A stretch of 64,000 bases of DNA from a virus, in the IMG/VR virus record IMGVR_UViG_3300023181_000025, positions 1 through 64,000 of that record; one strand, given 5' to 3'. Position numbers and translations under genes: made by a program. Of this stretch, positions 7,710 to 61,459 are shown one piece after another (within the stretch, counting starts at the first letter, position 1; every line of letters begins with the position of its first letter). The notes under the pieces were generated by a model. The model saw only the letters and a list, made by a program, of their open reading frames with translations. It was not told the DNA's origin and searched no databases.

Positions 7710-7736
7710 TTCTCTTTTTAATAAATTGTATGTAAT
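7710..7736 (+). promoter_or_regulatory. Putative late promoter P7747
   Basis: TTCTCT (7710-7715), 14 nt, then ATGTAAT (7730-7736), 10 nt before the ATG at 7747. A one-mismatch member of the TTC(A/T)CA-N13/14-GTGTAA family, at the head of the + strand late block. Confidence 0.45.
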
Positions 7737-7746
7737 ATCTTAATAT

Positions 7747-7944: not shown

Positions 7945-7961
7945 TAAAATAAATTAATAAT

Positions 7962-8639: not shown

Positions 8640-8688
8640 TTATTATTTTGCATAAAAATACAAATTAAAGGTATTATTAAATAAGTAA

Positions 8689-43985: not shown

Positions 43986-43986
43986 T

Positions 43987-44622: not shown

Positions 44623-44624
44623 AA

Positions 44625-45830
44625 ATGAGTGAAATCAATAGATTTTATGAAATTTATAAAAATAAAATTAACCAAAACGAGTCTTCAACTGCTCTAATAA
44701 ACTTTCTTGATGAAAATTTATCATATAAATGTAAAACCGTATTAGATTTAGGTTGTGGGAATTTAGAATGGATTTCCAAGTGTGAGAGCATTAAAAACGC
44801 AAATTTATATTACTTGGGTGTAGATATAATTCCCGAACTAATAAAATATAACGAAGCTTTATATCCTTGGTTTAATGGTGTATGTGAAGATTTAGAGAGT
44901 TTTATTAAATGGCCAAAAGCGGATATAGTTATATTAAGAGATGTTTTAAAATATCATTGTAATAATACCGCTCGCGATATTATAATGTATTCCCTTTATA
45001 ATAAATGGGAATATTTAATTATATCAACCACTAAAAATGATATATCTAATTTTAAAAGAAAAAAAATAAGGGGCGGGAACTCTGAAGAATTTAATATTTT
45101 AGAGAGTTTTAAGTTTTTTGAATTTCCTATAATGAGAATAGAAAGAAAAAATTGTATGGATCTGGTTATAGCAAGGGGTGAAGGGCATTTTGATTATATT
45201 GAAATTGGGATATCTCACTTTGATACCATTCTACATAAGTCAATAAGGAATCATAAATCCCATAACCCTCCTTGGAAAGGAATTAGTATGGATGGTGTTT
45301 CATTCTTTTTGGATAAACTTCCCACTCAACAGGAAAACATTAAAGTTTTAGGTTGTATGGGATTACAAGAAGGATGTGGGGAGATATATTATATAGACCC
45401 TGACCAATATAAGCCGAAAAGAATTCCGGTTTATTTAAGTGGTTACTCTAAACTTAATTCTCTACATGAAGTTTGTGTTGATAATTTAAATTCCCTATCA
45501 ATCTCCCCTGAAGAAGTTGTCTTAAAACAGGAGACCCCTATAATTTCTGCGGAATATTTAATAAAAAAATATAGCATCAAAACAATTGGTTATTTGAAGC
45601 TACAAACCAATGATAATGATTTAGAAATTTTATCTTATTTTATTGAGTGCTTCAAAGATAATTATGATTTACTTCCGGGAAAAATATCTCTCAGAATGCC
45701 AAGAAAAGACAGGTATAAACAAAGCTTATTTATACAAGTCATGAATTTTTTTAAGCTGAAGGGGTATATAATAGACGAGGCAAATAATTTAGATATTATA
45801 TTCACAAGGTATATTTCATATATACCCTGA
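44625..45830 (+). CDS. SAM-dependent methyltransferase with second FkbM-like half
   Basis: 401 residues. Residues 20-180 form a class I methyltransferase: VLDLGCGN (motif I, 39-46), a LGVD acidic-loop motif near 64-67 and DIVILRDVLKY near 102-112. Residues 190-401 resemble a degraded FkbM-type methyltransferase ('YIEIGISHFDT', 'IGYLKLQTNDNDLEILSYFIE'), with the SAM-binding glycines not clear. Sugar O-methylation fits the cassette. The 3' end overlaps the convergent gene by 15 bp (45816-45830). Confidence 0.65.
   Translation: MSEINRFYEIYKNKINQNESSTALINFLDENLSYKCKTVLDLGCGNLEWISKCESIKNANLYYLGVDIIPELIKYNEALYPWFNGVCEDLESFIKWPKADIVILRDVLKYHCNNTARDIIMYSLYNKWEYLIISTTKNDISNFKRKKIRGGNSEEFNILESFKFFEFPIMRIERKNCMDLVIARGEGHFDYIEIGISHFDTILHKSIRNHKSHNPPWKGISMDGVSFFLDKLPTQQENIKVLGCMGLQEGCGEIYYIDPDQYKPKRIPVYLSGYSKLNSLHEVCVDNLNSLSISPEEVVLKQETPIISAEYLIKKYSIKTIGYLKLQTNDNDLEILSYFIECFKDNYDLLPGKISLRMPRKDRYKQSLFIQVMNFFKLKGYIIDEANNLDIIFTRYISYIP
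45808..45826. other. Weak hairpin at the convergent gene end
   Basis: GGTATAT (45808-45814) and ATATACC (45820-45826) form a 7-bp AT-rich inverted repeat with a 5-nt loop, across the overlapping 3' ends of the + and - transcription units. Neither side has a convincing T-tract. It is the only terminator-like structure there. Confidence 0.25.
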
Positions 45831-46562
45831 GAACCTGTCTTTTTCAGATACATAGTCTGAAAGAATTAAATTGACTGGAGTTCCTAGTGCTATGCTTGGA
45901 AGATATACATGGAGTCTCGAAGTGTTTACTTGTGAAGCCTGAGATATAAAATTTACTCTTTTTAAAGCTAAATCTATTCTTTCTTGGAAACCTTTTCCTT
46001 TTAGGTTATTATCAATTTGCTGAATTGAACTTGAATATGTTTTATAATTTAAAAGATTATCTATATCGTAAGAGCCTTCTCTTTGTCCTGTATATTTTGG
46101 GAATGTCAAAGATATGCAGCCTCCGAATTCCGCATCGACTCCGCATTTCCTTAAAAAATCTCTGGTAGCTATATCCCGGCACATCGCGGGAAAACCTTGT
46201 TGCTTTACCATAGATTTGAACCACTCTCTTTTAGCATAGGCATTTTTTTGCCTAATGTCTCGGCAGTGATAACTTGCTATAATAACGTCTGTTTTACATG
46301 GCAGAACGTCTCTTCCTATCCATCCACACAAGAGAACAAGAGAATCTTTCGGCCAAGTAGAAAATTCGTCCCTTGAGACAAAATTATTGACGCCAAAAAA
46401 ACTTGAAGCAGCTAGTGATTGAATATCATCCCCTAAATTATTAGAACCTAATGCAATTGGAATATGGGTGACTTGATTTAAAAAAGATTCCCGCAACCAA
46501 GATAAATTCATTGGTTGCGGGAAAGTATTTTCGTTTATATCGTTTTGAAGGATCTTAATCAT
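45816..46562 (-). CDS. Polysaccharide-pyruvyltransferase-like protein
   Basis: A 248-residue protein. 'ALGSNNLGDDIQSLAASSFFG' at about 37-57 and 'LLCGWIG' near 81-87 match the N-terminal NxGD and Gly-rich motifs of the PF04230 family. 'ISQASQVNTSRLHVYLPSIALGTP' near 205-228 matches the C-terminal conserved segment (family: TxRLH). It is shorter than the typical 350 residues and probably compact. It is the last gene of the minus-strand operon; it overlaps the upstream phosphatase gene by 4 nt and the + strand methyltransferase by 15. Confidence 0.7.
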   Translation of the reverse strand: MIKILQNDINENTFPQPMNLSWLRESFLNQVTHIPIALGSNNLGDDIQSLAASSFFGVNNFVSRDEFSTWPKDSLVLLCGWIGRDVLPCKTDVIIASYHCRDIRQKNAYAKREWFKSMVKQQGFPAMCRDIATRDFLRKCGVDAEFGGCISLTFPKYTGQREGSYDIDNLLNYKTYSSSIQQIDNNLKGKGFQERIDLALKRVNFISQASQVNTSRLHVYLPSIALGTPVNLILSDYVSEKDRFSGYI

Positions 46563-47269
46563 TCAAATTCTTCTTTATCCGCCGCTTCGATGATGGAAAT
46601 TCTGTCTTCCTGATATTGGAAACTATGGCGGGGACCATCATAGTAAGCAAGGGGGCTTTTTAGAGAGAACTTCTGGTTCTCTATATCGAACTCTAACTCT
46701 ATAATTTCACAGTTTTTAGGGTTTCTTATAAGCTCAAACTCTTCAACAGATAAGTTCAAAAGGCTCATTAAGTGAACCCTTATGAACATACCATGACTTA
46801 CAATCCCTATATTTGGAGGGCAATCCTTTTCGTTAAGTCGATTTATTAATTCTGTTAAATTAAATAACTCCGCTCTTTCATAAACATCTGCGCAACTTTC
46901 GCCTCCCGGAAACCTATAATGGAAAACTCCCCATTTAAGCCGTTCCCTTTCGAGATCCATATTGGAGTGTGTCCCTACACTGTTAGTCCACTCTTGTTCC
47001 CTAATTAAAGGGGTTTCTTTTTTTCGTATTACTTTATTTTTTAAAGTTTTCGAAATATTGAAAAAGGTCTGTCTTGTCCTGTGGTGCGTAGAAACGAAAA
47101 AATCAAATTCGCCATCAATTTTAGATAAGATTTTTCCCGCTTTTTGAGCTTGTTCTGTTCCCCTTTTGGTAAGTTTTATGGCATAGTCAGGTGTATCGCT
47201 ATAAATATTATGATTAATATTTCCTTCGCTTTCTGCATGTCTCACCAAAAGTATTCTTTTATTCTTCAT
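46559..47269 (-). CDS. Histidine-phosphatase (phosphoglycerate-mutase-like)
   Basis: 236 residues from ATG 47269 (after the upstream stop; ATG 47284 is an in-frame alternative). 'ILLVRHAESEGN' (6-17) holds the catalytic RHG-type motif with His11. 'LTKRGTEQAQKAG' and 'VSTHHRTRQT' follow, and 'GIVSHGMFIRVH' carries the second His, all in canonical order. Such enzymes dephosphorylate sugars, lipids or proteins. Next to a metallophosphoesterase and pyruvyltransferase gene, a sugar-phosphate step is possible. Confidence 0.8.
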   Translation of the reverse strand: MKNKRILLVRHAESEGNINHNIYSDTPDYAIKLTKRGTEQAQKAGKILSKIDGEFDFFVSTHHRTRQTFFNISKTLKNKVIRKKETPLIREQEWTNSVGTHSNMDLERERLKWGVFHYRFPGGESCADVYERAELFNLTELINRLNEKDCPPNIGIVSHGMFIRVHLMSLLNLSVEEFELIRNPKNCEIIELEFDIENQKFSLKSPLAYYDGPRHSFQYQEDRISIIEAADKEEFE

Positions 47270-47270
47270 A

Positions 47271-47933
47271 TTAATGGTGGTCATAGATTTTAACTGGCTT
47301 GCTTTTCATAATTTTGTCAATTTCATCAAGCCAGAAAAAACTTCTACTCGTATGCTTAATTGCGTTTTCAACCCCACAATCCAACATTTTCCCAAAGTCC
47401 TTTTCTTCTGGGTTTAGTTGAGGGCAATTTGAGTGGCTATGCCCAAAGAGGGCCGGTAACTCGTATTTCATTTTATCCCAAATAAGTGGCGCAAAATGCG
47501 AGCAAAAATATGTCCTTTTATTGGCGACCATGAAAAACTGATCCCCTAAAATATATTTACCCTCTTCAATTTCAATTGGGAAAATGTCTTGTCTGACTCC
47601 CAGAACGTTTTGCGGGTTTTGAAACTTGACTGCTTCATCATACATTTGTTTAATACCTGATGGATGATTTCCAAAAAGAAACAATGTTCTACATGGTATT
47701 TCTCGAACTAGATTCGCTACATCTGTATTGTCGGCATTGAGAGCAAAATCCCCTAAAGAAATTAAAATGTCATCTGGCTTTAGTAGCTTCCAGTCTTCGC
47801 GAATCTTAGATAGATTTTCTTCTCTATTTTTAAAACCTCTTGGGCAATAAAGAAATTCTTTGTTGTGGTAAGCATGTTGATCCGATTGGACCGCTATACG
47901 GCCAAATTTTAAATTGTCTAGATTGATCTTCAT
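47271..47933 (-). CDS. Metallophosphoesterase
   Basis: A 220-residue calcineurin-like phosphoesterase: 'SDQH' near 17-20, 'SLGDFALNADNT' near 60-71, 'LFGNHPSG' near 86-93, 'FCSHFAPL' near 150-157 and 'LFGHSH' near 167-172 are the D.H, GDxx, GNH, H and GHxH metal-binding motifs. The substrate is unknown (nucleotide, sugar phosphate or DNA). It has its own sigma70-like promoter. Confidence 0.85.
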   Translation of the reverse strand: MKINLDNLKFGRIAVQSDQHAYHNKEFLYCPRGFKNREENLSKIREDWKLLKPDDILISLGDFALNADNTDVANLVREIPCRTLFLFGNHPSGIKQMYDEAVKFQNPQNVLGVRQDIFPIEIEEGKYILGDQFFMVANKRTYFCSHFAPLIWDKMKYELPALFGHSHSNCPQLNPEEKDFGKMLDCGVENAIKHTSRSFFWLDEIDKIMKSKPVKIYDHH

Positions 47934-47940
47934 GCCACGA

Positions 47941-47969
47941 TTATCGTTCGAAGATCGGCAATAGTCAAG
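47941..47969 (-). promoter_or_regulatory. Sigma70-like early promoter
   Basis: On the minus strand, TTGACT (47969-47964), 17 nt, then GATAAT (47946-47941), immediately before the start at 47933. The 173-bp gap 47934-48106 otherwise contains only a short hairpin. Confidence 0.7.
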
Positions 47970-48106
47970 GATTTTTTTCTCCAGTATTGCCTGATTTCAG
48001 GCTTTCTGAATTTTGTTTAATTTCGTAAAGAAATCTGTCCGGTATGGAACCGACTTCAAAAATACTTATTGGGTATCCAAACCAATAGTAATAAGAGTTG
48101 TCCCCT

Positions 48107-48436
48107 TTAGGGAAGAGTGTCTTCGATGCTAGAAGTTTCATTATTTTTTAATTTAATGGTCATAAAATTTTTAGGTATCTCAAAAACAAGCTGTTTGTTT
48201 GTGTAAAAATCTATATGCTCCCCTATATCTGAGGAAATATCTATTTCCGAAAATTTTTCTAAAAATAAAGCAGTCTCATTAAAATAAATGGATTCTTGAT
48301 GAAAAGTTTCTTTCAAGCCTTCTAGTTTACGAGAAGCTTCGTCAATCGCACTCAAAATCCTCTTTAATCTTTTTCCTCTTTCATAAAAGTTTACAAGAGA
48401 AGATTGTAATATAAAATCAGGGATTTGCAGTGCCAT
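48107..48436 (-). CDS. Hypothetical protein, 109 residues
   Basis: A helical protein with a coiled-coil-like stretch (residues 15-65) and a C-terminal beta/acidic tail. No family recognised. It overlaps the previous gene by 20 nt and is followed by the 173-bp gap with promoter. It may act with the single-strand-annealing-like protein encoded before it. Confidence 0.5.
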   Translation of the reverse strand: MALQIPDFILQSSLVNFYERGKRLKRILSAIDEASRKLEGLKETFHQESIYFNETALFLEKFSEIDISSDIGEHIDFYTNKQLVFEIPKNFMTIKLKNNETSSIEDTLP

Positions 48437-49232
48437 CGGTTTTTTCTTTCTTTTTTGTTGATTTGGTTACGATTGTCTCATGAATAAGAAGACAGTCATT
48501 CGTTGGAATATCTTTAAAATCATTCCAAGCTTCGTGTCCATCCCACTCTTTTTTAAGAAGTGCGTCTTTTAGGTCGGCAAAGGTCTTCCCTTTTGCTGCA
48601 AGAACATTTTTTAAACTGTCTTGTGGGCTTTTTGGCGCTTCATCTAATAATGAGCTAGTTATTTCCTTTGGTGAACTATTAATTTCTTCCGCACCTAAGA
48701 TATTAATATTTAGACCAGACTTAACCGCCCGAATAAATGCTCTGTTTTCGGCCATACTCTCAAGGAATAACTTGAAAGGGTAAACCGTATTCTCGTCTGT
48801 AGCATTCGCTAGGCCAGAAAATGATTGTGGCCGAAAATTAACCCCATCAATTTCTACTTCATCAAAATCAATATTGCATTTTACTGCTACATAGCCCTCT
48901 TCCGTATTAAAACGATGATGTTCCACCTTTGATAACCCCCTTAGGTGGGCAATATGTTTGAATCCAGCCAATCTAATAAGAAGATTCTCGTCTCCTGCCA
49001 AACTTTTAAGAGAGTTCTTTTCTTCTTGCGGAAGATCATCATAATTAGAAATTTCGTTTTTTGCCAGCCACGATGAATTTATTTCAATATACTTATCTGG
49101 GACTTTACTTTTCCAATCGAATAAGGCTGCATTGGAATATACTTTCTTTTCAGGGACGGATTCTTGTTCAACGATTTTTTTTGTCCTTGTCTTCTTTGCG
49201 GCAATTTCTTTTGTGTTTTCTTGGTCTGACAT
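48417..49232 (-). CDS. Possible recombination mediator (Erf/Rad52-like)
   Basis: 271 residues. The Lys/Glu-rich N-terminus is followed by a conserved-looking core (residues 75-175): 'GLSKVEHHRFNTEEGYVAVKC', 'FDEVEIDGVNFR' and 'LESMAENRAFIRAVKSGLNI', with 'GAEEI'. The 'AE..A..RA.....G......EE' pattern is what I associate with phage single-strand-annealing or Erf/Rad52-like proteins. The C-terminal third has Lys/Ser-rich segments. Placed in the replication operon. No strict signature is present, so this is tentative. Confidence 0.35.
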   Translation of the reverse strand: MSDQENTKEIAAKKTRTKKIVEQESVPEKKVYSNAALFDWKSKVPDKYIEINSSWLAKNEISNYDDLPQEEKNSLKSLAGDENLLIRLAGFKHIAHLRGLSKVEHHRFNTEEGYVAVKCNIDFDEVEIDGVNFRPQSFSGLANATDENTVYPFKLFLESMAENRAFIRAVKSGLNINILGAEEINSSPKEITSSLLDEAPKSPQDSLKNVLAAKGKTFADLKDALLKKEWDGHEAWNDFKDIPTNDCLLIHETIVTKSTKKKEKTDGTANP

Positions 49233-49235
49233 AAT

Positions 49236-50279
49236 TTATTTTTTAATGTAATATAGAAAAACTTCAGCCTCTTCCAGAAAATCTTTATCTTCCGCTCCGG
49301 CTAAAATGTTGTTTCCTCGTGGGTCGCTAGATTTTATGTTATTCTTTAAGTGGAATAAACTATTAAACGTTCCATTTTTAGAAACTATTTTTCTTTTTGA
49401 TTCTATGTAAGTATCATGCCTTAAACCAAGTAATTTGTCAACATTATTTTTCCCCCAATTTTCGCTTACTTGAATTGGTTTAAAATCAAAGAATTGGAAT
49501 TTTAGCTCTTCTACATTTTGGTCATCGTAACATACCAATATATAAGGGATTCCTAATTTTTCTATCTCTCTCACTGACTCAGGCTCTATTCCCTTACCTA
49601 GAAATATGTCTATCCTTTCGCAGCCTTTTAGAAATGGCAAAATGGACGTAGGGATTTTACTTGATATACTTATAATGGGTTTGGTCCCTGCACTTACCGC
49701 ATCCATAGCAAATTTCCAATTTTTAAATAAGTCACATCTAATCCCAATTGGGGATTTAGGCAACCGGCTAATTGTATGGAAATTAAAATCTGGAATTATT
49801 TCTATAACCTCTACCCCAAAATCTGGCCCGACTAAAACAGTTTCGATATTAACATTTATATCAATTTTACATTTATCAAAAATGTATTGGGCTACGACTT
49901 CAGGGTTTTCATCATTTATCTTTAAATGGTTTAGGTTTTTTGACAATTCTAGTATCCACTCATTATCAGAAATTAAACATATCGCATTTTTCGCAAGATA
50001 TGCGTAGTGTCTTATATTTTTTGTATTAACTGGAAATGAACCATTCAAAGGGTTTCCACCATTAAGGTTAATATTGCATATGTAAATATCTTTTTGGGCA
50101 AGAATTGGTGCCGTTATGTCAATAACTTGTTTCCAATATGGAAACCCTCCGTCATTTGAGACTATTATGTATTTTTCAAACGGGAGAGGAAAATAATTAT
50201 AATTTATTTTTTCTACCTCTTCTTGTGGGTTTCCATACAAAGAAAATTTAATATTTTCTATTTCAGTTATTGATCTCAT
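49236..50279 (-). CDS. Hypothetical protein, possibly a GT-B-type transferase
   Basis: 347 residues from ATG 50279; a TTG immediately upstream is an alternative. It is alpha/beta with repeated hydrophobic strands ('KYIIVSNDGGFPYWKQVIDITAPIL', 'ICLISDNEWILELSK', 'IPYILVCYDDQNVEELKFQFFD') that suggest two Rossmann-like domains. It overlaps the preceding glycosyltransferase by 17 nt, so a glycan-related partner is likely. No family recognised with certainty. Confidence 0.45.
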   Translation of the reverse strand: MRSITEIENIKFSLYGNPQEEVEKINYNYFPLPFEKYIIVSNDGGFPYWKQVIDITAPILAQKDIYICNINLNGGNPLNGSFPVNTKNIRHYAYLAKNAICLISDNEWILELSKNLNHLKINDENPEVVAQYIFDKCKIDINVNIETVLVGPDFGVEVIEIIPDFNFHTISRLPKSPIGIRCDLFKNWKFAMDAVSAGTKPIISISSKIPTSILPFLKGCERIDIFLGKGIEPESVREIEKLGIPYILVCYDDQNVEELKFQFFDFKPIQVSENWGKNNVDKLLGLRHDTYIESKRKIVSKNGTFNSLFHLKNNIKSSDPRGNNILAGAEDKDFLEEAEVFLYYIKK

Positions 50280-52131
50280 CAAATATTTTGTTGTTTTTAA
50301 AGATTACCTTTTTAAACCTAAATTCCTCATTTTTATTTTTTACTTCAGAAAGCCAAATGGGGTCTATTGATTTACTTGATTTCGGAATAATTTTATAACT
50401 ACCGCACTCTAAATAAATTTGTTCATCTACTTCATCCGCTACAATATAAACTTTTTCATTTTCGCAAAGGTCTTTTACAAATTTAAGACAGGCTAGTCGT
50501 TGCTCAATTTTTGGAGGGGATATAAAAGCTACAAATCCTTTATCCGTATCGTTTTCGAAATAGGTGGTGATTTCTGTTTTTTTTCTATTCGTGTTATTTT
50601 TTCGGGCGAATTCAGTAGTTGTTTTATAAACATTCTCTTTTGTATCACCGAATTCTATTTTTTTAAGAAGTTTTTTAATAACTTGACTATCTTTTGTCTC
50701 GTCTTGATTCAGAACACCTTTTATTAGGTCTATACACCAGTCCGTAGTATCTTCTATATCTTGGAATGGGTAGCTTGGATTAAATTCAAATCTATTAATT
50801 GAATAATTATTATCCGGTTCTGGACAACTATCTATCCAATCTTCAATTAATCCGCAAATGCGCTTTACATTAAATCGTTCACTTGCCCAAGATGAACCAT
50901 CCTTTGATCTAGAGTCTATATTATTTGATTCACAGAAGTTTTTAATTAGCTCGGCAATATGATTTGGTGAGGGTTGGGCTTTTTTGAATTGACTTTGGCA
51001 CTCCCTGTATTCTGTATGGGTTATTGTATCAACAAATGGTTGTTCGCAGAACTCTTCTCCACAGGAATAATTAACGGTGGCTACTGGCGTTCCTGCCATT
51101 AGGCTTTCTACGATTGGCATTTCTAGGCCGCCTGATGTTACCGGATGAACATAGTAATCAATAACATTGTAGATTTCGTTCATTTGGGGGTCCGAAACGC
51201 CCTTGTAGCTCTTTACAGTATATTGGGATTTTTCGCTGCCGCAATGTTGACAGTTTTCTTTATCTGTAATAAACGGTTTTAATGAATAGCCTCCACAATT
51301 ATTACATACATAAGTGGCTAGAACATCTTCGTTGTTTATATTATATTCTTCCAGAAATGAGGGGATATCCCACTTGCCTTCTTCGACCCAATTAGTGTGA
51401 AGCAAGAGTTTTGCTTTAATATTTGGATTTGAGTTTTTAAAAATTGAAAAGGCCTCAATTAGTGTTCCTACTAATTTACGAAGCTGATTTCTAAAAACAA
51501 AACCTACAATAACAGTGTTTGAGTCAAGATTATTTTTTTTCTTAATTGCTAATTTATCCAGCGGTTTAAAATTTTCTGTATCAATTGCTCCCGGAATTGT
51601 TTTGACATGAGTGTGACCGAGTCTCTTAAATTCATTTTCCGCGAATTTACTCCAAACCCATAAATTTTTAATTTTGTGGGCGTTTTCTCTGGCCTCTTTA
51701 TATAAAGGTAAAGAGTCTGCGGTAGCCCATATAGCACAATTGACTTTGTTCCACCAAGGCTTGTCGGTATATCCATCAAATGCCCAGAAATCATTGACAC
51801 CGATATAAATATCTGGCCGTTCTTTTTCTATTATATCGTCTATATAAAGTCCACCGTATTTACTTATACTATTTAAATACTCAGATTCTTCAAGGGCATT
51901 TTTTGCCCCTCGTTCTTCCGGCATGGCCCCATAGGCCCGCCACGGAACCGCTGAAAGCCTTTTATCTTTATAGGTGAATGGGGCGCAAGCAAATTCAATT
52001 ATCTCATATTTCCCCGTAGCATATAAATACGACAAAACAGCTTTGGCGTTTTTACCAAAGCCGGATGGAGTTTTACAAAAATCACTAGCCCAAAGAATTT
52101 TTTTCTTTTTGCTGTTACTTGTTTCCATCAT
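50263..52131 (-). CDS. GT4-like glycosyltransferase with zinc-ribbon insertion
   Basis: 622 residues. Residues 1-200: N-terminal GT-B Rossmann domain (KILWASDFCKTPSGFGKNAK at 11-30; ADSLPLY at 138-144). Residues 205-400: C-terminal domain with 'GLEMPIVESLMAGTPV' (335-350), the GT4 donor-binding signature. A CxxC...CxxC zinc-ribbon (C276, C279, C294, C297) is inserted between. A similar ribbon occurs in some phage-encoded GT4 proteins in my memory. Residues 450-622 are unassigned. It starts on the last base of the previous stop (TAATG). Confidence 0.75.
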   Translation of the reverse strand: MMETSNSKKKKILWASDFCKTPSGFGKNAKAVLSYLYATGKYEIIEFACAPFTYKDKRLSAVPWRAYGAMPEERGAKNALEESEYLNSISKYGGLYIDDIIEKERPDIYIGVNDFWAFDGYTDKPWWNKVNCAIWATADSLPLYKEARENAHKIKNLWVWSKFAENEFKRLGHTHVKTIPGAIDTENFKPLDKLAIKKKNNLDSNTVIVGFVFRNQLRKLVGTLIEAFSIFKNSNPNIKAKLLLHTNWVEEGKWDIPSFLEEYNINNEDVLATYVCNNCGGYSLKPFITDKENCQHCGSEKSQYTVKSYKGVSDPQMNEIYNVIDYYVHPVTSGGLEMPIVESLMAGTPVATVNYSCGEEFCEQPFVDTITHTEYRECQSQFKKAQPSPNHIAELIKNFCESNNIDSRSKDGSSWASERFNVKRICGLIEDWIDSCPEPDNNYSINRFEFNPSYPFQDIEDTTDWCIDLIKGVLNQDETKDSQVIKKLLKKIEFGDTKENVYKTTTEFARKNNTNRKKTEITTYFENDTDKGFVAFISPPKIEQRLACLKFVKDLCENEKVYIVADEVDEQIYLECGSYKIIPKSSKSIDPIWLSEVKNKNEEFRFKKVIFKNNKIFDEINN

Positions 52132-52619
52132 TAAGAATTATCTTGTTTGTCTTTAAAAAGCTTCTTTTCTTCGGTATAGTCGGCAACAAAAATCCTATTA
52201 AGGCCAAATCTAAACCACTCACATAACAATAGAGCTTCCGCGAAAGTAAATGGAACCGAAGCCTTCTTTTCCCCTTTGGAAACCGATAAAGCTATCCCTT
52301 TTGGGGTCAGAGCCTCACCTTCCTTAAAAGGATAAACTCCAAACGTAATTTGAGAGCTAGTATCACCTGTAGTATGGAAAAACTTGGCTTGTCCCTTTTT
52401 CTTTTGGCAAATTTCCATCATACCGGCTATCTCCGTTGGAGAAAATTTTAAGTTTATCTTATTTTCAGGGTTTTTATCAAAGGAGCCTGTTTTGTTTTTA
52501 TCGTCCCATCCGGTTTGTTTAACTAGCTGAATGTAAAATCCTTGCGCTTTACCTGTTGATGTAACTGAAAAACTACATGCTGCACCGCCAACCTTTGGAT
52601 TTGGTTTATAAAATTTCAT
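52131..52619 (-). CDS. Putative ssDNA-binding protein (PC4/Whirly-like pattern)
   Basis: 162 residues. It has basic and aromatic beta strands (residues 10-40 and 65-115), then a 'VPFTFAEALLLCEWFRFGL' helix (122-140), resembling the beta-sheet plus C-terminal helix of PC4/Whirly-type ssDNA-binding proteins. An acidic C-terminal stretch ends the protein (DKQDNS). It is placed next to the polymerase genes and driven by its own strong promoter, as expected for an SSB. The similarity is pattern-level only. Confidence 0.4.
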   Translation of the reverse strand: MKFYKPNPKVGGAACSFSVTSTGKAQGFYIQLVKQTGWDDKNKTGSFDKNPENKINLKFSPTEIAGMMEICQKKKGQAKFFHTTGDTSSQITFGVYPFKEGEALTPKGIALSVSKGEKKASVPFTFAEALLLCEWFRFGLNRIFVADYTEEKKLFKDKQDNS

Positions 52620-52690: not shown

Positions 52691-55273
52691 TTATTCTTTT
52701 ATTCCTTTTAAATCAGCTAAGGAAATGCAAATTTTGTAATTCTGAATTTTCATACTATTCACCCAAGTGATATCCCCGTTTGCACTACCTACAATAAATA
52801 AAACATCTCCCTCTTTTGGGTCTAAATGACCATCTTGAGCATAATTTTCATATTTATCGCCAAGCATCATGGCATCAAAAGAGCCAGTTTCATCAAATAA
52901 ATTCATTTTAATATATTTATTTCCGGCCTTGGATGTCCCCTTTTTAACCTCTCCAACCTGATACACGCCTTCAACTTTCCATCCCGGTTCGAAACTTTTT
53001 ACTTCTAGCGCATTTTTAAGGGTAGATTTTGAACCAATGAAAACTTTTTTAAGTGTTGTCGTGAAGCTATATCCCAATAGGGTTTTTTCGTAATACCAGC
53101 TTGCAAATAATGGATGCTTGATGTTTTGATGATAAATTTCCTTATATTTGACTGAGCCTTTGCGAATTGTTTCCAATCTAGTTTTACCGGCGACTCTTTT
53201 GCCGGTAGAGTCAACCCAAGAGTCTATGTTCTTTACCATCATAAGAAGATCGAAATCATAGGATTGGCCATTTTCCAAGCAAAAAGCTTGCTCTTTTGGC
53301 TTAAGAAGGTTCCAAATCTGACCTTCAAAGACCGTTCTTTCTCTATTTGGGGAAACAGAGTTCAACATGCCAGCTTGAATAAGCGCACAAACGACCCCTA
53401 TATTCAGTTTACTCTGTTTTGCCGCATTAAATACTTCAAATTTATTAGTTTTATTTATTGAAAGGAAATTAGTTAGCGACTCTAAGGATTTTTGGCTCAC
53501 CCCTTTAATACTACTAAAACCATAACGAATATCTGAACCCTCTAGCGAGAAATCTGGTTTGCTTTTTATTAAGTCGGGGGGCAATAGCTTAATTCCAAAG
53601 AAATTAAGTTCTTGTTGAATAAGGCTGATATGGTCTTGCGTGTCAGACTTATTTTGCGCCATTCTTAAGCATTCACAATAAAATACTTGAGGATATTTAT
53701 ACTTATAATATAAAGTTAGGGCCGATAGATAACTATATGCGGCGCTGTGAGATTTATTGAACGAATAGTTGGCGGATTCTTCAAGAAGGTTCCAATAAAA
53801 ATCTGCAATTTCTGTCGGAAGGCTTTTGGATTTTTGGGCTTCGTAAATCCTCTCTTTCCACTTTGCTACTTCTTCTGCCTTTTTTTTACCAATCGCACGC
53901 CTCAGACCTTCAGAGTCCTCAAGACTAAAGCCAAAGACCTTGTGGCCTATGCTGAGGGCTTGTTCTTGATAGATGGGGATATTATGGGTTGGCGCAAGAA
54001 TTTCTTGCATTTCTTTTGTCCCCCAATATTCTTTATATTCATTCTTTACATAGTCTCCTACATAGGCCATTGCACCCGGACGAGCAAGGGCAATAACGTC
54101 ACTTAGTTCGCTCCAATTTTTTGGCTTTACCTCTTGAAATACTCTATAGTTTGCGCTTGCTCCAATTTGGAATAGTCCATACGGCAAGTCACCAGTTTGA
54201 GAGACTTGATAGATCCAAGGATCATCAGGGCTAAAATGTTTTATATCAAATTTTACTCTTTCGTCGTCTAGTGATTTTTCATCAATGACTTTTAGTGATT
54301 TTTCGATTCTGTCAATAAGAGTTACACCATGTAGCCCAAGCAAATCTAATTTAATAGATTCTTGTTGGGCATAGTTCATATCAAATGAGCTAATTACCTC
54401 ACCTTCGCCGTCAAGTTCGCAAGGAAGAAAGTCGTCTAATGGATCATAGCTAACCAAAAAAGCTGAAGCATGAGAACCCTTTTGCCTCATTAATCCTTCA
54501 ACTTTTGAAGCAATCCTAACAACTTCAGAATGTTCCTTGGCAAACGCTGCAAAATCTTCGCTTTCTTCTTGAGATTTTTTTAAAGATAATGGTTGACCGA
54601 ACTTTGTAGGAATGCTTCTTGTCCCTTGCATAAGGGTCTCTTCTGGTAAATTTGCTACAATTTTTCCACAATCTTTTAAAGCTATTCTGGACGCCAATGT
54701 AGAAATTGTCGGCAGCTTACAGAATTTTCCCCTATATTTATTTTTTAGGTGTTCAATTACTTCAAATCTTCTGTCAGTGCATATATCAAGGTCCACATCC
54801 GGGGCAAGATTTCCGTCCAAGTAAACAACGCCATCAACTGTTTTTGATTTAGCTCTTGCCCTTGAAATGAAACGCTCAAAAATTAGACTGTTTTCTACTG
54901 GGTCGATCCCAGTTACCCCAATCAAATACATAACTAGACTGCCCGCCGCCGATCCTCTTCCGGCCCCAGTAGGGATATCCTTTTCGTGACAAAAATTAAT
55001 AACATCCCAAATTAGGAGGAAATAATCTGTGAATTTAAGCTCATCAATTACCTCTAGTTCTTGCTTTGCGCGATTTACGTAATCGACATTATTTCTTACG
55101 CCCCTTTCCTTCATTCCTTTTACACAGAGTGCTTTCAGGAACTGAATATTAGAAACTTCCGGGGAAATGTTATTATCCCGGTAGTAATGTTCATCAATTT
55201 TAATTTCTGGCAGTCTAACGCCATGAATTTTAATCTCCAAATCGGAGAACTTATTTAGAAAGGACTGTTCCAT
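52691..55273 (-). CDS. dnaE: DNA polymerase III alpha-like catalytic subunit (lacks PHP)
   Basis: An 860-residue family C polymerase core. Residues 100-112 'IPTGAGRGSAAGS' match the conserved palm motif. 'APDVDLD' (157-163) and 'SIKLDLLGLH' near 315-325 carry the catalytic Asp residues. 'YQEQ' near 415 and the 'SYLSALTLYYKYKYP' helix belong to the fingers and tail. An OB-fold-like stretch ('VEGVYQVGEVKKGTSKAGNKYIKMNLFDETG') is near 760-790. The usual N-terminal PHP domain (about 270 residues) is absent here and supplied by a separate gene at 55862-56596. It overlaps the exonuclease gene by 23 nt. Confidence 0.93.
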   Translation of the reverse strand: MEQSFLNKFSDLEIKIHGVRLPEIKIDEHYYRDNNISPEVSNIQFLKALCVKGMKERGVRNNVDYVNRAKQELEVIDELKFTDYFLLIWDVINFCHEKDIPTGAGRGSAAGSLVMYLIGVTGIDPVENSLIFERFISRARAKSKTVDGVVYLDGNLAPDVDLDICTDRRFEVIEHLKNKYRGKFCKLPTISTLASRIALKDCGKIVANLPEETLMQGTRSIPTKFGQPLSLKKSQEESEDFAAFAKEHSEVVRIASKVEGLMRQKGSHASAFLVSYDPLDDFLPCELDGEGEVISSFDMNYAQQESIKLDLLGLHGVTLIDRIEKSLKVIDEKSLDDERVKFDIKHFSPDDPWIYQVSQTGDLPYGLFQIGASANYRVFQEVKPKNWSELSDVIALARPGAMAYVGDYVKNEYKEYWGTKEMQEILAPTHNIPIYQEQALSIGHKVFGFSLEDSEGLRRAIGKKKAEEVAKWKERIYEAQKSKSLPTEIADFYWNLLEESANYSFNKSHSAAYSYLSALTLYYKYKYPQVFYCECLRMAQNKSDTQDHISLIQQELNFFGIKLLPPDLIKSKPDFSLEGSDIRYGFSSIKGVSQKSLESLTNFLSINKTNKFEVFNAAKQSKLNIGVVCALIQAGMLNSVSPNRERTVFEGQIWNLLKPKEQAFCLENGQSYDFDLLMMVKNIDSWVDSTGKRVAGKTRLETIRKGSVKYKEIYHQNIKHPLFASWYYEKTLLGYSFTTTLKKVFIGSKSTLKNALEVKSFEPGWKVEGVYQVGEVKKGTSKAGNKYIKMNLFDETGSFDAMMLGDKYENYAQDGHLDPKEGDVLFIVGSANGDITWVNSMKIQNYKICISLADLKGIKE

Positions 55274-55865
55274 AGGCTAAGTGTTTAAATACGTCTGCGT
55301 TAATTGTAACATCATAAAGAGCGTCATGCAACTTCTTTTCGTCAACTGGGATATTGAAGCTTTTCGCCACGTCAATTAATTTTCCCTTAAAGGCCTTGTC
55401 ATACCTACCAAGCATTTTATACATGAATGAAAGACGCTCTCGCTCATCGGCGGGTAATTGAACCTCAAAGAATCTTCCTCTCGCCATACAAAGCGTATCA
55501 ATACACCTATAGATAAAATCTCGAAAATCTAACTTGCGGCCAACATAATTATACAGATTCATAAGGATATAAATGTCATACCCCAATATATTGTGACCAA
55601 CAAGTAAATCATCAGTTTCAATAAAATCTTTTTGGATGATATCTACTACATGATCGGCTGGAAGTTTTTTCTTATTATAAATCTCCCAAGAGAATCCAGT
55701 AACCTTGGCTGCGTCTGGGTTTACCTTTAGATTGTGAATATCTATATAAAGATTTTGTCTATCTACAATTTTATTGTTTTTAAGTTTTACATAGGCTAGT
55801 TGCCATGGTCGAGTTAGACTTAAGTTAAGGGATTCCGTTTCCATGTCCCAGATAGTTGCGTTCAT
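55251..55865 (-). CDS. DEDDh 3'-5' exonuclease (proofreading subunit)
   Basis: A 204-residue protein of the DnaQ/RNase-T type. D7/E9 in 'WDMETES', D97 in 'GHNILGYDIYIL' and H180/D185 in 'LHDALYDV' give the DEDDh set. It is encoded between the PHP-like and polymerase genes, overlapping both (4 nt and 23 nt). It most likely provides proofreading for the split polymerase. Confidence 0.88.
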   Translation of the reverse strand: MNATIWDMETESLNLSLTRPWQLAYVKLKNNKIVDRQNLYIDIHNLKVNPDAAKVTGFSWEIYNKKKLPADHVVDIIQKDFIETDDLLVGHNILGYDIYILMNLYNYVGRKLDFRDFIYRCIDTLCMARGRFFEVQLPADERERLSFMYKMLGRYDKAFKGKLIDVAKSFNIPVDEKKLHDALYDVTINADVFKHLAYGTVLSK

Positions 55866-56596
55866 ACTTTATTTATATTTTCCTTCCAACTTTCAAAACA
55901 AAATTCTTTACTGTGGCAATGTTCAAAATTCGGTGAGTCTAAACTTCTTTTGCGTCCCTTGTAATTCAGGTTTAATGAGCATTTGTAGGTTTGCCAAACC
56001 TTAAAGTCTTCGCGGTTCTTATAATAAATGGATTTGGTCTTTACTTTATTGTTTCCAATTTTTGAGGAAACTAAATCGTCAAACGGAAGTGCATTATCCT
56101 CCCAAAAGAAGGTATGTTCAATGTCATTAAATTCCGGGAGACAATTTGTTCCATTAATGACGTTCCTAAAGATATAAGAATCATAAAAGGGAACGACAAG
56201 TTCAAGATTTCTTGTCCACAAATTCTTCAAGACATTAGTGTCCACATAAGATTCGTTATGTATATTACTAAAGTTATGAAGTTTAATAAGATCCTTGTAT
56301 CCCTCTGTGTTTTTGCAGAAAATTAGAATCTTGCTCCAGTTTGGCTTGTTTTCTTCGCTAACTTCGTTAAGAAATATTCGAGTAAGACCAAATCTAGGAT
56401 TTAACTTTGCTTCTGTGAAATTTTCATACATTTCTAGAAACCCAGTCATCTTGGACTCAATGACGAAAGGATTTTTTATATCGTTATCTAAGCAGATATC
56501 AATGATGCTATCTTTGTTGTATTTCGCTGCATCTTCTGACGTATCGAACGTAAGCACACTTTTGCCGCTATAGTGACTAGTGAAAAGTGGAATCAT
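55862..56596 (-). CDS. Detached, degenerate PHP domain of polymerase III alpha
   Basis: A 244-residue protein. 'ILIFCKNTEGYKDLIKLHNFSN' near 89-110 matches the DnaE PHP signature ('LLAKN..GY.NL.KL.S'). 'IFLNEVSEENK' and the following 'VLKNLWTRNLELVVP' also follow DnaE order. The expected metal ligands are altered: no HxH at the N-terminus ('FTSHYSG') and a 'CLDNDIKN' in place of TDHgN. It is therefore probably a structural PHP without metal activity. The remaining polymerase is encoded two genes downstream. Confidence 0.72.
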   Translation of the reverse strand: MIPLFTSHYSGKSVLTFDTSEDAAKYNKDSIIDICLDNDIKNPFVIESKMTGFLEMYENFTEAKLNPRFGLTRIFLNEVSEENKPNWSKILIFCKNTEGYKDLIKLHNFSNIHNESYVDTNVLKNLWTRNLELVVPFYDSYIFRNVINGTNCLPEFNDIEHTFFWEDNALPFDDLVSSKIGNNKVKTKSIYYKNREDFKVWQTYKCSLNLNYKGRKRSLDSPNFEHCHSKEFCFESWKENINKV

Positions 56597-56831: not shown

Positions 56832-57815
56832 TTATTTTAAATTCATCCACGCCGGACAGCCCAAATAAAGCTTTTCCTCTATTGTATCCCCTTCTTTCAT
56901 TTTGTCAACCATATCCTGTTCTATTTTGGATGTCCCAATTATCTTCCCCTCTTTATTTTTAAGCTCGTAATATACGAATGGATATTTTAATGAGCAAACC
57001 CAAGCTGGAGACCCATCTTTTTTAAGAGCACCCTTTTCTTTTCCACATAAAAAATAGCTATCATTAAATCTAGCAAAATTAGAAGTAGCCTTTTTGGTAT
57101 TAAAATCTTTTAAATATAAGTATATTTCAGAAAGATAAACCTCGAAGCCTTTGAGGTGCTTGTCGGTAAACTTAAATCTTTGCCATGGGTCTTTAGGAAA
57201 TTTAAGAAAAAGGAAATTTACATCGACTTCTTCTAAATCAAGTTCTTTCCATAAAGCTAAAGCATACATAAGACCTTGAACGTTAAAATCCTTGTCTTTC
57301 CCTGTAAATTTTGCTTTACTGGTTTTATAGTCATCAACTCGACCTTTCTTTCCGCAGCAAGAGATCGCGTTTTTATCAATAAAGCCTAAAATTTTATATT
57401 CAGGGTTTTCTGATTCAATTTGAAATTTCTTTTCCGGTTTTTGAAGTTCCCAAAACTTTTCTCCATTGTGGTTTGGATCTTGAACTTCTTGGCAGAAATA
57501 ATCTGCTTTTAAACCCGTGGAAATGAAACCCTTGATCAGTTTCAGGTTCGCATCGTCGTCAACTTGCAAAATCTTTGCATGTTTAAGAACTAAACGCCAA
57601 ACGGAAGGGATTGAGTCAGTTCCATTCGCAACAATTTCAACAATATATTTTTGATGGCGAGGGTTTAATAATACTTCTAAAATTAAATGGCAAATGGTTC
57701 CCCGTTTTGCTCCATCATTAGACCCATCAATATCTCTAAGACCAAGGTGATACTGTGCATGGTAAAGCCATGAACAGGTATTGTATGTTTTTATTCTAGA
57801 GGCGCTTAAGAACAT
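56832..57815 (-). CDS. PD-(D/E)XK exonuclease (RecB/Cas4-like)
   Basis: 327 residues. 'GAKRGTICHLILE' (35-47), D147 in 'ILGFIDKN', 'VDDYKTSK' (160-167) with D162 and K164, and Q180 in 'NVQGLMYA' are the ordered PD-(D/E)XK motifs of the RecB/AddB/Cas4 group. An N-terminal C14 and late C-terminal Cys could form a Fe-S cluster as in Cas4; this is not certain. Likely a 5'-3' or 3'-5' exonuclease in recombination. It overlaps the phosphoesterase gene by 10 nt. Confidence 0.82.
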   Translation of the reverse strand: MFLSASRIKTYNTCSWLYHAQYHLGLRDIDGSNDGAKRGTICHLILEVLLNPRHQKYIVEIVANGTDSIPSVWRLVLKHAKILQVDDDANLKLIKGFISTGLKADYFCQEVQDPNHNGEKFWELQKPEKKFQIESENPEYKILGFIDKNAISCCGKKGRVDDYKTSKAKFTGKDKDFNVQGLMYALALWKELDLEEVDVNFLFLKFPKDPWQRFKFTDKHLKGFEVYLSEIYLYLKDFNTKKATSNFARFNDSYFLCGKEKGALKKDGSPAWVCSLKYPFVYYELKNKEGKIIGTSKIEQDMVDKMKEGDTIEEKLYLGCPAWMNLK

Positions 57816-59065
57816 GCGGGGCGAGAGTATATAATAGATTCTAATCCATCTTCTTTATCGAAAATAAACCCTTGACCAACTCTAATGTTCCCAACATAGC
57901 CTCTATCATAATGATAAACATCATTCCCAGAAAGAGAAGGAACAACCCTAACTTTGACTCCATTAAACTCTTTAACAATCTCATGATGAAGGTGCCCAAC
58001 TCTAATTTCTCTATATTTTGAATTAGCCCAAAGAGCGGGCTCTTCTGTTGCTGCAATTAGAGGTAGCTTTTCCATTTTTTCTTTATCTCCATGTGTATAA
58101 AGAATTAAATTTTCTCCATAGGAATAATATTTGCGAGATTTAATTCCGTTGTCAACCGTTACATTTTCATCGTTATGATACCAACATTCCAAGGCGTCTC
58201 CGATATGGAACATTCCGTTCGAATCGTGATTACCACATACCACAACTACATCTACTGGAGCATATATTTTTAAAGTATCTATGGCTTGAATAAGTAGCTT
58301 CCGGCCTTCTCTGAAGATGAATGGGAACGTGGAGTCACAATCTTGTGGTGTTCCTGCCGTTGTCGTCCTAAATGAATTATCTACATTAAGGTAATCGTTA
58401 CCCACGGGGAAACAAATTCTGTCTATCTTGCCGCCTTTAAGTGTTTTCTGAACAATGTCAACTAAAGCTTCTAGATATAGCTTTTTTGCAATCTCAATTG
58501 AATAATTATTTCCGACTTGATCCTTAAATCCAAGCTTTCCTAAATGAAGGTCAAATAAACAAATTTCAAGTAAACGTGATCCATCGTTTTTCGCACTTAC
58601 ATGAATTCGTGGAACTTTTAGTGAGGATTTCTTTAAATCTTCTTTAAGATCGTCAATGTTTATACGGGTTTTTTTTGAGATTTTACGCTCTAAATATGCT
58701 TTTACTTGAGAAAAAATAACTACTCCATCACAAGTATTCGCAGGCCATGAATTGGGCCTGAACGACTTAACTTCCCAATCTTCTTTATTTATATTGCAGC
58801 GATCAAGAAGCTCATCCAAGGTTTTCAGGCCGTAATGCTTTGCGTTTATCTCAATGTTATCATCGTCTAGGTCTATCGCAGAAATCTCTTCTTCGCTCGT
58901 TTCTTTATAATCTAGATTTTTAATTTCATTAAAATTTTGATTAACTTGGGTTTTCCCCAGCCCCGTATTGCTACGGATGTAATTTTTAATCGTTACTGTA
59001 TTCTCTCCTATTTTCAGGAGATGTTTTACAGTTTTAATTATTATATTATCAATTTTTGGACTCAT
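57806..59065 (-). CDS. Metallophosphoesterase (SbcD-like) with N-terminal HTH
   Basis: 419 residues. Residues 1-50 look like an HTH. The phosphoesterase begins near 165 ('CLFDLHLGKLG', D/H), with 'PVGNDYLNVD' (GND), 'VVVCGNHDSNG' (GNHD), 'ILYTHGD' and 'RVGHLHHE' (GHxH) in family order. SbcD/Mre11-like enzymes act as DNA nucleases and need an ATPase partner (SbcC), not seen in this window. The C-terminus overlaps the exonuclease gene. Confidence 0.8.
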   Translation of the reverse strand: MSPKIDNIIIKTVKHLLKIGENTVTIKNYIRSNTGLGKTQVNQNFNEIKNLDYKETSEEEISAIDLDDDNIEINAKHYGLKTLDELLDRCNINKEDWEVKSFRPNSWPANTCDGVVIFSQVKAYLERKISKKTRINIDDLKEDLKKSSLKVPRIHVSAKNDGSRLLEICLFDLHLGKLGFKDQVGNNYSIEIAKKLYLEALVDIVQKTLKGGKIDRICFPVGNDYLNVDNSFRTTTAGTPQDCDSTFPFIFREGRKLLIQAIDTLKIYAPVDVVVVCGNHDSNGMFHIGDALECWYHNDENVTVDNGIKSRKYYSYGENLILYTHGDKEKMEKLPLIAATEEPALWANSKYREIRVGHLHHEIVKEFNGVKVRVVPSLSGNDVYHYDRGYVGNIRVGQGFIFDKEDGLESIIYSRPACS

Positions 59066-59951
59066 TTAATTGTTCGATTATACTTTCTTTTGGGGTCATT
59101 CCCCAATCGTTCAATTGAGGTAGTTTGATTGATATCATATCATCATTTACAAGTAGGGTCAAGCTTTTTCGAATTTTTTCGGCTCCTTGTAGCCCCCAAT
59201 TTTGCTCTGAATCGAAATCGTTATTTGTTGATATTATTATTTCTCCGCCTAGAGCCGAAAGAAAGTTTACTAGTTTAGGACTTATGTTTGTTCCAAATGT
59301 AACAATTACATTAAAAAATCCAGCGTTTCTTAATGCAAGCATGTCTCCTATACTTTCGACCAGATAAACCCTTTTTTCCTCTAGGATATGGTCTATGGCA
59401 CAAAGAGGGTAGATCCATTCTCTGCTAAATCCTATTTTTTTCCACTTAGCCTCACGACTTAACAAGTCTCGTCCGGTCAGCCCGATAATATCATCATATT
59501 CATCCCTAATTACAAAAACAAATCGGTTATTTAGTCTTCCAGACATTTGTAAGCCACATTCTAAGCCTTTTAAAATCTTTTCGTCTATATTCCTTTTGTC
59601 ACTAGTATAAAAAGAGTAGTTAGGCAACAGATCGTAAACATCTACGGGGTTTATTTTACTTTTTGTTTTTAGCTTAGGCTTTTTATATACATATTCTACA
59701 AAAAGCTCGTTATTGTTAAGCCACTTGTCGGCTTCTTTATAAGTTTCTAAATTTAGGGTGAGTTTAACTAAATGTTTCAGCCCTCCCTTTTCTCCGCTCA
59801 CAAAGTCATTGAAATAACCTGTTTCCTTATTTATTCTGAGGGCATTATTATTATCCCCTTGCCTATAAATAGCTTGTGCCCGCCAATATTTTGAATTCTC
59901 GGTTTTGAGATTGTATCCTAATTTAGATAAAACTTCTTCTATGTTGTTCAA
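59049..59951 (-). CDS. DnaG-like primase without zinc-binding domain
   Basis: 300 residues. The N-terminal region (1-80) resembles the beta-sheet core of DnaG-type zinc domains ('ALRINKETGYFNDFVSGEKGG', typical 'F..G.GG...') but lacks the CHC2 Cys/His set. The Toprim domain shows 'YLVESIGDMLALRNAGF' (E near 197) and 'IIISTNNDFDSEQ' (DxD). Together with the DnaB-like helicase just upstream, it forms a primosome. Overlaps neighbours by 4 and 17 nt. Confidence 0.78.
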   Translation of the reverse strand: MNNIEEVLSKLGYNLKTENSKYWRAQAIYRQGDNNNALRINKETGYFNDFVSGEKGGLKHLVKLTLNLETYKEADKWLNNNELFVEYVYKKPKLKTKSKINPVDVYDLLPNYSFYTSDKRNIDEKILKGLECGLQMSGRLNNRFVFVIRDEYDDIIGLTGRDLLSREAKWKKIGFSREWIYPLCAIDHILEEKRVYLVESIGDMLALRNAGFFNVIVTFGTNISPKLVNFLSALGGEIIISTNNDFDSEQNWGLQGAEKIRKSLTLLVNDDMISIKLPQLNDWGMTPKESIIEQLNESKN

Positions 59952-61459
59952 AGTAATTCCTCTCTTTCGATTTCTTTATCTTTATCCCCATAAGAGGATT
60001 TTTTTCGACCTCTTTTTGGTTTGTCCTCGTCTGGTTCTTCTAGGTCAATTTGTTTCTTTAGATGCTCTATAACATCAGCCCTTGTTCCGGCCTCTTTCAT
60101 TGCGAAATTCTTAACAGAGATATTTAACCAATTTGGATTCCAAACCGTTCCCTTTTCCTTTTCTTGTTTAACAAACTCTTCTTCTTCCCAGTCAGCCCCT
60201 TGATTTCTCAGGGCAAACGGCTGAATCACATGGGTTCCAAATTGATCCCCGTGTTCCGCAAGCTCTTCGGACGTTTTCCGTCTAAATAGATAAATATTTG
60301 ATGCAAACCACTTAATCCGCTGAGACATTGCTACATCATTTGCTGCGTTACTTTGCACCGCTGCAACCCCGCACAATCCAAGTTCAGCCATAAGGTGCTT
60401 AAGAGTGTCGCATTTTTCCCCCATGACTTGATATTCTTTGTTGGAATCATCAATTTTTTCACCAGTTATTTTTAAGTAATCATAAATAACAACGCATTCG
60501 TCATCTGGATCTGTGTGAACAGCTTTCCATCTTTTGATAATTCTACAAACCTTATCAATCGGTATATTCGCTACGTATCTATGATAAATTTTTCCTTTAC
60601 GAGCAGAGAACTTGGGAAACTGGCTTGTAACCTTTTCTACCATTTCGGAGCTTTTGGCCCATTTACCATCTTTAATGTAGCACTCATTTACTTGGGACAT
60701 AGAAGCCACCTTCCGGGTTCTTACCCGGAAAGATTCAAGTTCAGTGTCTAAAATCAGAACTTTAATTTTTTTGTCTTTATTTGCAAGAATAAAGGGCGCG
60801 TCGGCTATCCAGTTTAAAATAGTGGACTTTCCGGTTTTCGGCGGAGCGACAATGACATGAAAATCCCCTTTAGTTAATGGTCCCCACCATCTATTCCAAG
60901 TCTTGAAAGGCAAATAAACACCCTCTGGGGTCTCTCTCTCAGCAATGTTCTCAACCATTTCATCAAGCCCCTCGTATACGTCTACAAAGGTGTCATCGTC
61001 CTCTTCAGAGGCTGTTGAAGATAGGGCCATCCCCTTCTCCATTGCTGCAATGATCGTCGAAATTGGCTGATTTAAATTACTGTGAATTTCTTTAATAGTA
61101 TTTTGACAGCTAATTACGCCCGCTCTAGCAATTTTATATTTATAGCATTCTTTAAAATAGGTGTCGATTTTATCTTCCGTAACGGAGTTCATCCTTACAA
61201 TTGTTCGAATATAGTCAGGAATATCCGTCCCGTCTTGACTGGCAAGACCAATGTTTGTTACGTGATTAGCTAAGATAGTTATATCGACAGTTTTCTTGTT
61301 CTTAAACTCGTGCCTGATTGAGCCTAATATTATTTTATGAACATCGTTATGAACAAGGTCATCTCCAAGCCGTTCTAGATAATCTGGAATAACTTGAGGA
61401 TGTTTAATTATAGATGCGAGAAAAACTCGCTCAATTTCATAGGATGCTGGTATTTTCAT
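59948..61459 (-). CDS. DnaB-like replicative helicase
   Basis: 503 residues. N-terminal domain 1-140 ('ERVFLASIIKHPQVI', 'HKIILGSIRH'). RecA-like domain: Walker A 'APPKTGKST' (205-213), Walker B 'VVIYDYLKI' near 320 and 'AAVQSNAAND' (sensor/arginine region) near 355. C-terminal tail is acidic and Lys-rich. DnaB helicases unwind the fork and recruit primase, here encoded next. Confidence 0.9.
   Translation of the reverse strand: MKIPASYEIERVFLASIIKHPQVIPDYLERLGDDLVHNDVHKIILGSIRHEFKNKKTVDITILANHVTNIGLASQDGTDIPDYIRTIVRMNSVTEDKIDTYFKECYKYKIARAGVISCQNTIKEIHSNLNQPISTIIAAMEKGMALSSTASEEDDDTFVDVYEGLDEMVENIAERETPEGVYLPFKTWNRWWGPLTKGDFHVIVAPPKTGKSTILNWIADAPFILANKDKKIKVLILDTELESFRVRTRKVASMSQVNECYIKDGKWAKSSEMVEKVTSQFPKFSARKGKIYHRYVANIPIDKVCRIIKRWKAVHTDPDDECVVIYDYLKITGEKIDDSNKEYQVMGEKCDTLKHLMAELGLCGVAAVQSNAANDVAMSQRIKWFASNIYLFRRKTSEELAEHGDQFGTHVIQPFALRNQGADWEEEEFVKQEKEKGTVWNPNWLNISVKNFAMKEAGTRADVIEHLKKQIDLEEPDEDKPKRGRKKSSYGDKDKEIEREELL

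Follow-up and report, generated by a model that had tools for sequence, protein, structure and literature searches.

The virus record IMGVR_UViG_3300023181_000025 from IMG/VR has a length of 211,168 bases, of which positions 1-64000 were analysed here and are referred to as the window. On its minus strand lie three consecutive genes that resemble the parts of one family-C DNA polymerase: a PHP protein of 244 amino acids (aa; positions 55862..56596), a DEDDh 3'-5' exonuclease of 204 aa (55251..55865) and a polymerase core of 860 aa (52691..55273), which we call PHP, EXO and POL. The PHP stop and the EXO start share four nucleotides, as ATGA (55862..55865), and the end of EXO overlaps the start of POL by 23 nucleotides (55251..55273). 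A preliminary description of this DNA had reported three overlapping minus-strand open reading frames (ORFs) of 244, 204 and 860 aa; we verified their coordinates and both overlaps.

The Pfam match of the first protein to PHP is only just past the cut-off (E = 8.9e-6), but this weak call is settled by the fold, which matches the PHP domains of DnaE. The AlphaFold2 model (here, as throughout, of a single chain) has a predicted local distance difference test score (pLDDT) of 87.5 and a predicted template modelling score of 0.84. When it was compared with the PDB using Foldseek, the first 15 matches were all DnaE PHP domains and extended over the whole length of the protein. The best type of match was E. 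coli DnaE (5fkw, E = 2.8e-10, template modelling score 0.70 over 261 columns), whereas PolC reached only E = 7e-3 and a score of 0.36; an alpha-epsilon chimera was also present among the structural matches. Profile-profile alignment with hhalign placed the protein on residues 12-246 of E. coli DnaE (probability 98.3%, E = 1.8e-14). The protein thus has a complete DnaE-type PHP fold; structure comparison rules out a chance Pfam match, and the label PHP-like given to it in the preliminary description is borne out by the fold search.

Most DnaEs carry the PHP metal-ligand set HHDHEHCDH, the active set being HHDHEH[C/H]DH; none of these nine ligands is retained in any of the 20 PHP sequences compared, from which we infer that the PHP subunit is catalytically dead. 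EXO, which matches the RNase_T/DEDD exonuclease family of Pfam (E = 3.2e-10), has by contrast an intact DEDDh site (D-x-E, D, H-(4)-D), with D7, E9, D97, H180 and D185 invariant in 19 sequences. Given the complete loss in one protein and the invariance in the other, it is probable that PHP serves as a scaffold and that EXO is the proofreader.

POL is of DnaE type. It comprises palm, thumb, fingers, helix-hairpin-helix (HhH) and a C-terminal OB fold, with Pfam matches to DNA_pol3_alpha (PF07733, E = 7.3e-61), DNA_pol3_finger (PF17657) and HHH_6 (residues 560-646), and all 16 sequences compared keep D159, D161, D163 and D310. Among PDB sequences it matches DnaE at 1.2e-88 and PolC at 2.5e-9; Foldseek comparison of its AlphaFold model (pLDDT 81.9) gives 1.5e-35 and 5.6e-16, respectively. 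Strands 766-843 of the model match OB folds, and HhH followed by OB lies C-terminal to the core, as in DnaE; 184-230 aa follow the core in POL, against about 10 in PolC. At the other end, POL has only 52-62 aa before the core and no PHP in the chain, whereas complete DnaEs of other phages and of cells have at least 256 aa there (nearly all at least 292; Bas99 256), the truncated Listeria contig L203 excepted. In DnaE family models, the counterpart of POL residue 13 is position 271-275. Since PHP covers DnaE residues 12-246 and POL starts near 271-275, no domain is missing, and PHP and POL together account for the whole of a DnaE, the cut lying in the linker that joins PHP to palm, within about residues 247-262.

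Scans of IMG/VR returned 22 relatives with POL as the query, three with PHP, at least 526 with a PHP alignment and at least 243 with an EXO alignment. From these data and two Flavobacteriales metagenome-assembled genomes (MAGs) we assembled a census of 151 non-identical loci, cited below by L numbers. The separate genes and their order, as given in the preliminary description, recur widely: PHP, EXO and POL follow one another on one strand in 140 of the 151 loci (in eight of these POL is in two ORFs), and the remainder are ten pieces, mostly at contig ends, plus one fusion (L409). Repetition in so many non-identical loci indicates that order and separateness are more than chance. The split replicase is a trait of a large family of aquatic phages that have not been cultured, which we refer to as the split clade. 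The Flavobacteriales MAGs contribute two of its loci; an ordinary cellular DnaE is present in one of the two bins as well. In a published survey, PF07733 was present in 51.9% of the marine jumbo phage cluster PGC_A (PMC9123017).

PHP and EXO overlap in 86 of 141 loci (29 as ATGA), and EXO and POL in 97 of 141 (66 as ATGA). Such overlaps suggest translational coupling, which is probable for the PHP and EXO genes of the window. Stretches longer than 200 bp separate PHP from EXO in 43 of 141 loci and EXO from POL in 31 of 141, and PHP sometimes lies 1-4 kb away from EXO or POL. The junctions that we read contain unrelated genes, including those for SET, IMP dehydrogenase (IMPDH), ClpP, radical SAM proteins, glycosyltransferases, dCMP deaminase and homing endonucleases (LAGLIDADG, T5orf172). 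Hot spots for unrelated genes at the junctions were seen in L003, L004, L006, L014, L115, L116, L123, L141 and L182. Where such genes intervene, the products must work in trans and cannot form one chain. Overlapping genes in different frames could also arise from a sequencing or assembly error, or reflect a programmed frameshift that yields a single chain; with the same split in 140 non-identical loci, and with the parts set apart by cargo genes and stops, we reject this for the clade and regard its probability as negligible.

In L409, which was revealed by a scan with the exonuclease profile and disproves the notion that the parts are never fused, a single open frame of 1369 aa contains PHP (residues 18-260), EXO (276-471) and POL (500-1362). 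The fusion is present in four IMG/VR records, of which three have identical sequences and the fourth is 99.98% identical. A single assembly slip can therefore be discounted, although the records may come from related samples. In a concatenated tree of all three parts, L409 is nested inside the split clade (98-99%). Given this nesting, the ancestor of the known clade had the split genes and the fusion arose later, not the reverse. The occurrence of a natural fusion that follows the gene order is also strong indirect evidence that PHP, EXO and POL act together. It bears in turn on the idea that the PHP-like protein acts on its own, as an enzyme or a regulator, and takes no part in the polymerase. 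The protein has a gene of its own, which in places lies at the kilobase distances noted above, and its counterparts in the clade are 29-54% identical to the protein of the window; however, the protein retains none of the nine metal ligands, its fold is specifically that of a DnaE PHP domain, and it is constantly linked, and in L409 fused, to the other two parts. We consider a free-standing role very unlikely. A search of 50,697 phage records gave no close relative of PHP (best E = 0.06).

The order PHP, exonuclease, polymerase is that of the domains of PolC, and the genes could in principle derive from a PolC whose chain broke up. EXO, as a profile, does match the exonuclease of T. maritima PolC in the PDB (2p1j, 2.8e-10), and placement of the POL clade beside the PolC outgroup is not rejected in an unrooted tree (approximately unbiased (AU) test, P = 0.62), which means only that POL may be the deepest lineage on the DnaE side, not that it is a PolC. 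Descent from PolC is nevertheless rejected, and we give it hardly any weight: core and PHP are of DnaE type by sequence, profile and fold; the DnaE C-terminal OB region is present and the N-terminal domain (NTD) of PolC absent; the exonuclease follows a PHP that is contiguous over DnaE residues 12-246, rather than being inserted in it; and a clade of EXO with PolC exonucleases is rejected (AU P = 0.0012). With a core, a C-terminal OB and a PHP all of DnaE type, an exonuclease placed after a whole PHP, and EXO grouping with the exonuclease domain of Bacteroidota DnaE1, the PolC-like gene order is best described as convergent. The preliminary description had seen the genes as parts of one family-C replicase split at domain borders, by fission of a PolC-like or a DnaE ancestor; the split at domain borders and the DnaE option hold, while the PolC option, and with it a parallel by descent, falls, as core, PHP and EXO are all non-PolC.

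In the phylogeny of the core that it had proposed, the split clade is monophyletic (100%); sequence and architecture put it on the DnaE side, and when rooted with PolC, the tree has POL branching deep, outside cellular DnaE1. The sister group of EXO is the exonuclease domain found at the N terminus of Bacteroidota DnaE1 (bootstrap 94-99%; support 99/94, or 94/92 without two poor rows). DnaE1s of Bacteroidetes with a fused N-terminal exonuclease have been described by Timinskas et al. (PMC3919608), according to whom exonuclease capture in PolC and in DnaE1 were separate events; the phage split replicase appears to arrange these modules in yet another way.

This raises the question of whether all three parts came directly from such a host DnaE1, with order EXO-PHP-POL, that was broken and re-ordered, an origin claim that would be compatible with the mechanism proposed below. 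Besides the position of EXO, the best matches of PHP outside the split clade are Bacteroidota DnaE1s, a clade with these is slightly preferred in the PHP tree (P = 0.56), their PHP site is degenerate as well (e.g. HHQHEQNNY), and two clade members are found in Flavobacteriales MAGs. However, the best PHP matches were chosen among 198 genomes, all from a single phylum, binning in a MAG says little about the host, POL scores higher with DnaE1s of the Candidate Phyla Radiation (CPR), and a sister relationship between POL and the Bacteroidota exo-DnaE1s is rejected (AU P = 0.0099). Because of the long branches we retain direct host origin as a weak rival, possible but clearly improbable. A different reading takes the arrangement as primitive, with PHP, exonuclease and polymerase never yet fused and the clade standing as a third deep lineage next to DnaE and PolC. 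The ancestral split within the clade and the deep position of POL in the PolC-rooted tree would fit it, yet POL is a long branch and retains the PHP-palm linker region, loss of the PHP metal site is a derived state, and EXO groups with one specific cellular DnaE1 domain; we hold a primitive state to be very improbable. Were it true, the re-fusion in L409 would show how a PolC-like order can arise.

Taken as a whole, the data are most probably explained by a single phage replicase of the DnaE kind encoded by three genes, with PHP as a separate subunit. POL would synthesize DNA; PHP, without a metal site, would pack on the palm of POL where the PHP domain of DnaE sits, as a scaffold; and EXO would proofread in trans, probably with PHP as its dock, so that PHP may hold EXO near the primer end. 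The model for this is E. coli, in which epsilon attaches to the PHP domain of alpha and has a long C-terminal tail for binding alpha. It is this contact with the PHP domain, together with the pattern in family C by which the PHP site, not the DnaQ site, is the one lost (PMC12926913), that leads us to favour docking of EXO on PHP. As to history, fission of a DnaE is likely: the chain would have broken at the PHP/palm linker and an exonuclease gene, kin of the N-terminal exonuclease domain of Bacteroidota DnaE1, would have been placed at the break. We infer from the nesting of L409 that the three-gene state was already present in the common ancestor of this large phage clade, and that in one lineage the three genes were fused again in frame.

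Several points tell against this explanation and call for caution. The POL branch is long and its deep place among DnaEs is not settled by the trees, so that fission is deduced from domain bookkeeping rather than from a close fused sister. EXO does not have a long epsilon-like C-terminal tail, and its docking contact must therefore differ from that in E. coli. The inserts at the junctions, finally, mean that adjacency of the genes is not essential.

Among known systems, Bacteroidetes DnaE1 has the same modules as the split clade (DEDDh exonuclease, PHP without a metal site and DnaE core), and EXO groups with its exonuclease. Unlike the split clade, it is one chain of 1404-1595 aa in the order EXO-PHP-POL, which is also not the order of the L409 fusion (PHP-EXO-POL), and its core is, as reported above, not the sister of phage POL. 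The E. coli Pol III core likewise combines a DnaE polymerase, a DEDDh proofreader in trans and an inactive PHP, its PHP domain carrying epsilon, but there PHP is covalently part of alpha and epsilon has the long tail missing from the 204-aa phage EXO. PolC shares the gene order (in L409, the domain order), yet its exonuclease lies inside PHP, it has an N-terminal NTD/OB region, and it is distant in sequence and fold. PolC without the inserted exonuclease, with TIGR01405 matches in two blocks, was seen in L237-L241 (genomes of G003's phylum). The phrog_405 polymerases of phages (Mildred21, Oliynyk, MTATph1, Pbunavirus) are also family-C replication genes, but in these cultured phages PHP and core are in one chain. 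All the cultured-phage polymerases examined are either single chains with PHP or cut elsewhere.

DnaE is also spread over two or more genes in fractured genes, namely the cyanobacterial split-intein DnaE and those of LC76P1, KLEB27-3 and phiST; unlike in the split clade, the cuts there fall within palm or fingers, and PHP remains joined to the start of the palm. In LC76P1 and KLEB27-3 a homing endonuclease lies at the cut: DnaE is broken in palm/fingers with a LAGLIDADG or HNH gene between the pieces (L425, LC76P1, 3807-8353, all annotated as hypothetical; L198, KLEB27-3, 2933-7303). In the cultured Flavobacteriia phage Cellulophaga phage phiST (L426, 41632-45232), a stretch without a RefSeq gene encodes DnaE in two overlapping frames of 526 and 677 aa, with the cut inside the palm and so at a different place from that of the split clade.

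Within the census, POL itself is in two ORFs, broken at the conserved FNK/SH motif of the fingers, in L006 (5986-9467), L018 (5998-9906), L021 (5998-8956), L142, L178, L414 and L418. In the five such splits that we read, the N-terminal part ends in the start of an intein (CLSPET...EHKFL) and the C-terminal part begins with an intein end (HNFYANGIVVSN, followed by SH), so that these breaks look like split inteins; the site is three residues from that of the cyanobacterial DnaE split intein. L006 has an HNH/NUMOD4 endonuclease inside its N-intein. Between the intein halves of L018 lies a free-standing endonuclease-like ORF of 312 aa (7787-8725) with weak matches to MTES_1575 and NUMOD3, which resembles 'fractured gene' arrangements. 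In two Bacteroidota DnaEs (L323, L326) the fingers region is longer by about 400 residues, which probably represent an intein.

The PHP domain is regarded as integral to bacterial family-C replicases, and the reason for keeping a dead PHP has long been unclear. Nearly everywhere else this domain is built into the polymerase chain, whereas the split clade keeps it free, as a separate inactive protein beside a separate exonuclease, and has once rejoined all three. Its role in folding, polymerase stability and docking of the proofreader can thus be tested directly, by omission or swap. The clade also illustrates an independent route to PolC-like module orders, and the split can serve as a marker by which to recognize an abundant group of uncultured phages, possibly phages of Bacteroidota. 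In the literature searched, no paper was found that describes a trans PHP in phages or this phage clade.

In the window the three genes belong to a minus-strand replication block in the order helicase, primase, phosphoesterase, PD-(D/E)XK nuclease, 83-aa ORF, PHP, EXO, POL and a 162-aa protein, all of these being on that strand. The DnaB-like replicative helicase (59948..61459) was recognized by Pfam DnaB_C (1e-11), PHROG (6e-40) and synteny, and the DnaG-like Toprim primase (59049..59951) by Pfam Toprim_4, a PHROG primase match (4.5e-21) and synteny. These are followed by a calcineurin-like phosphoesterase/exonuclease of the same block (phrog_704, 57806..59065, 1.1e-69) and by the PD-(D/E)XK nuclease (56832..57815; Pfam PDDEXK_1, 4.2e-12), a neighbour conserved by synteny upstream of PHP. 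The 162-aa protein directly downstream of POL (52131..52619) is kept near POL in several relatives (L004, L006, L018, L019, L021, L026); single-stranded DNA binding would be a guess from its sub-threshold Pfam match to Whirly (E = 0.053). No PF00712 match to a beta clamp was found in the 211 kb of this possibly incomplete record, and no beta-clamp binding motif is clear by eye in POL. A 622-aa protein (50263-52131) is likewise conserved downstream of POL in relatives, and several glycosyltransferase-like genes, recognized by eye, flank the block (42222-52131). Elsewhere in the window, a large terminase-like gene on the plus strand (13560-16298) has an apparent intein, with a C-terminal splicing motif at residues 438-460 (E = 6.4e-7).

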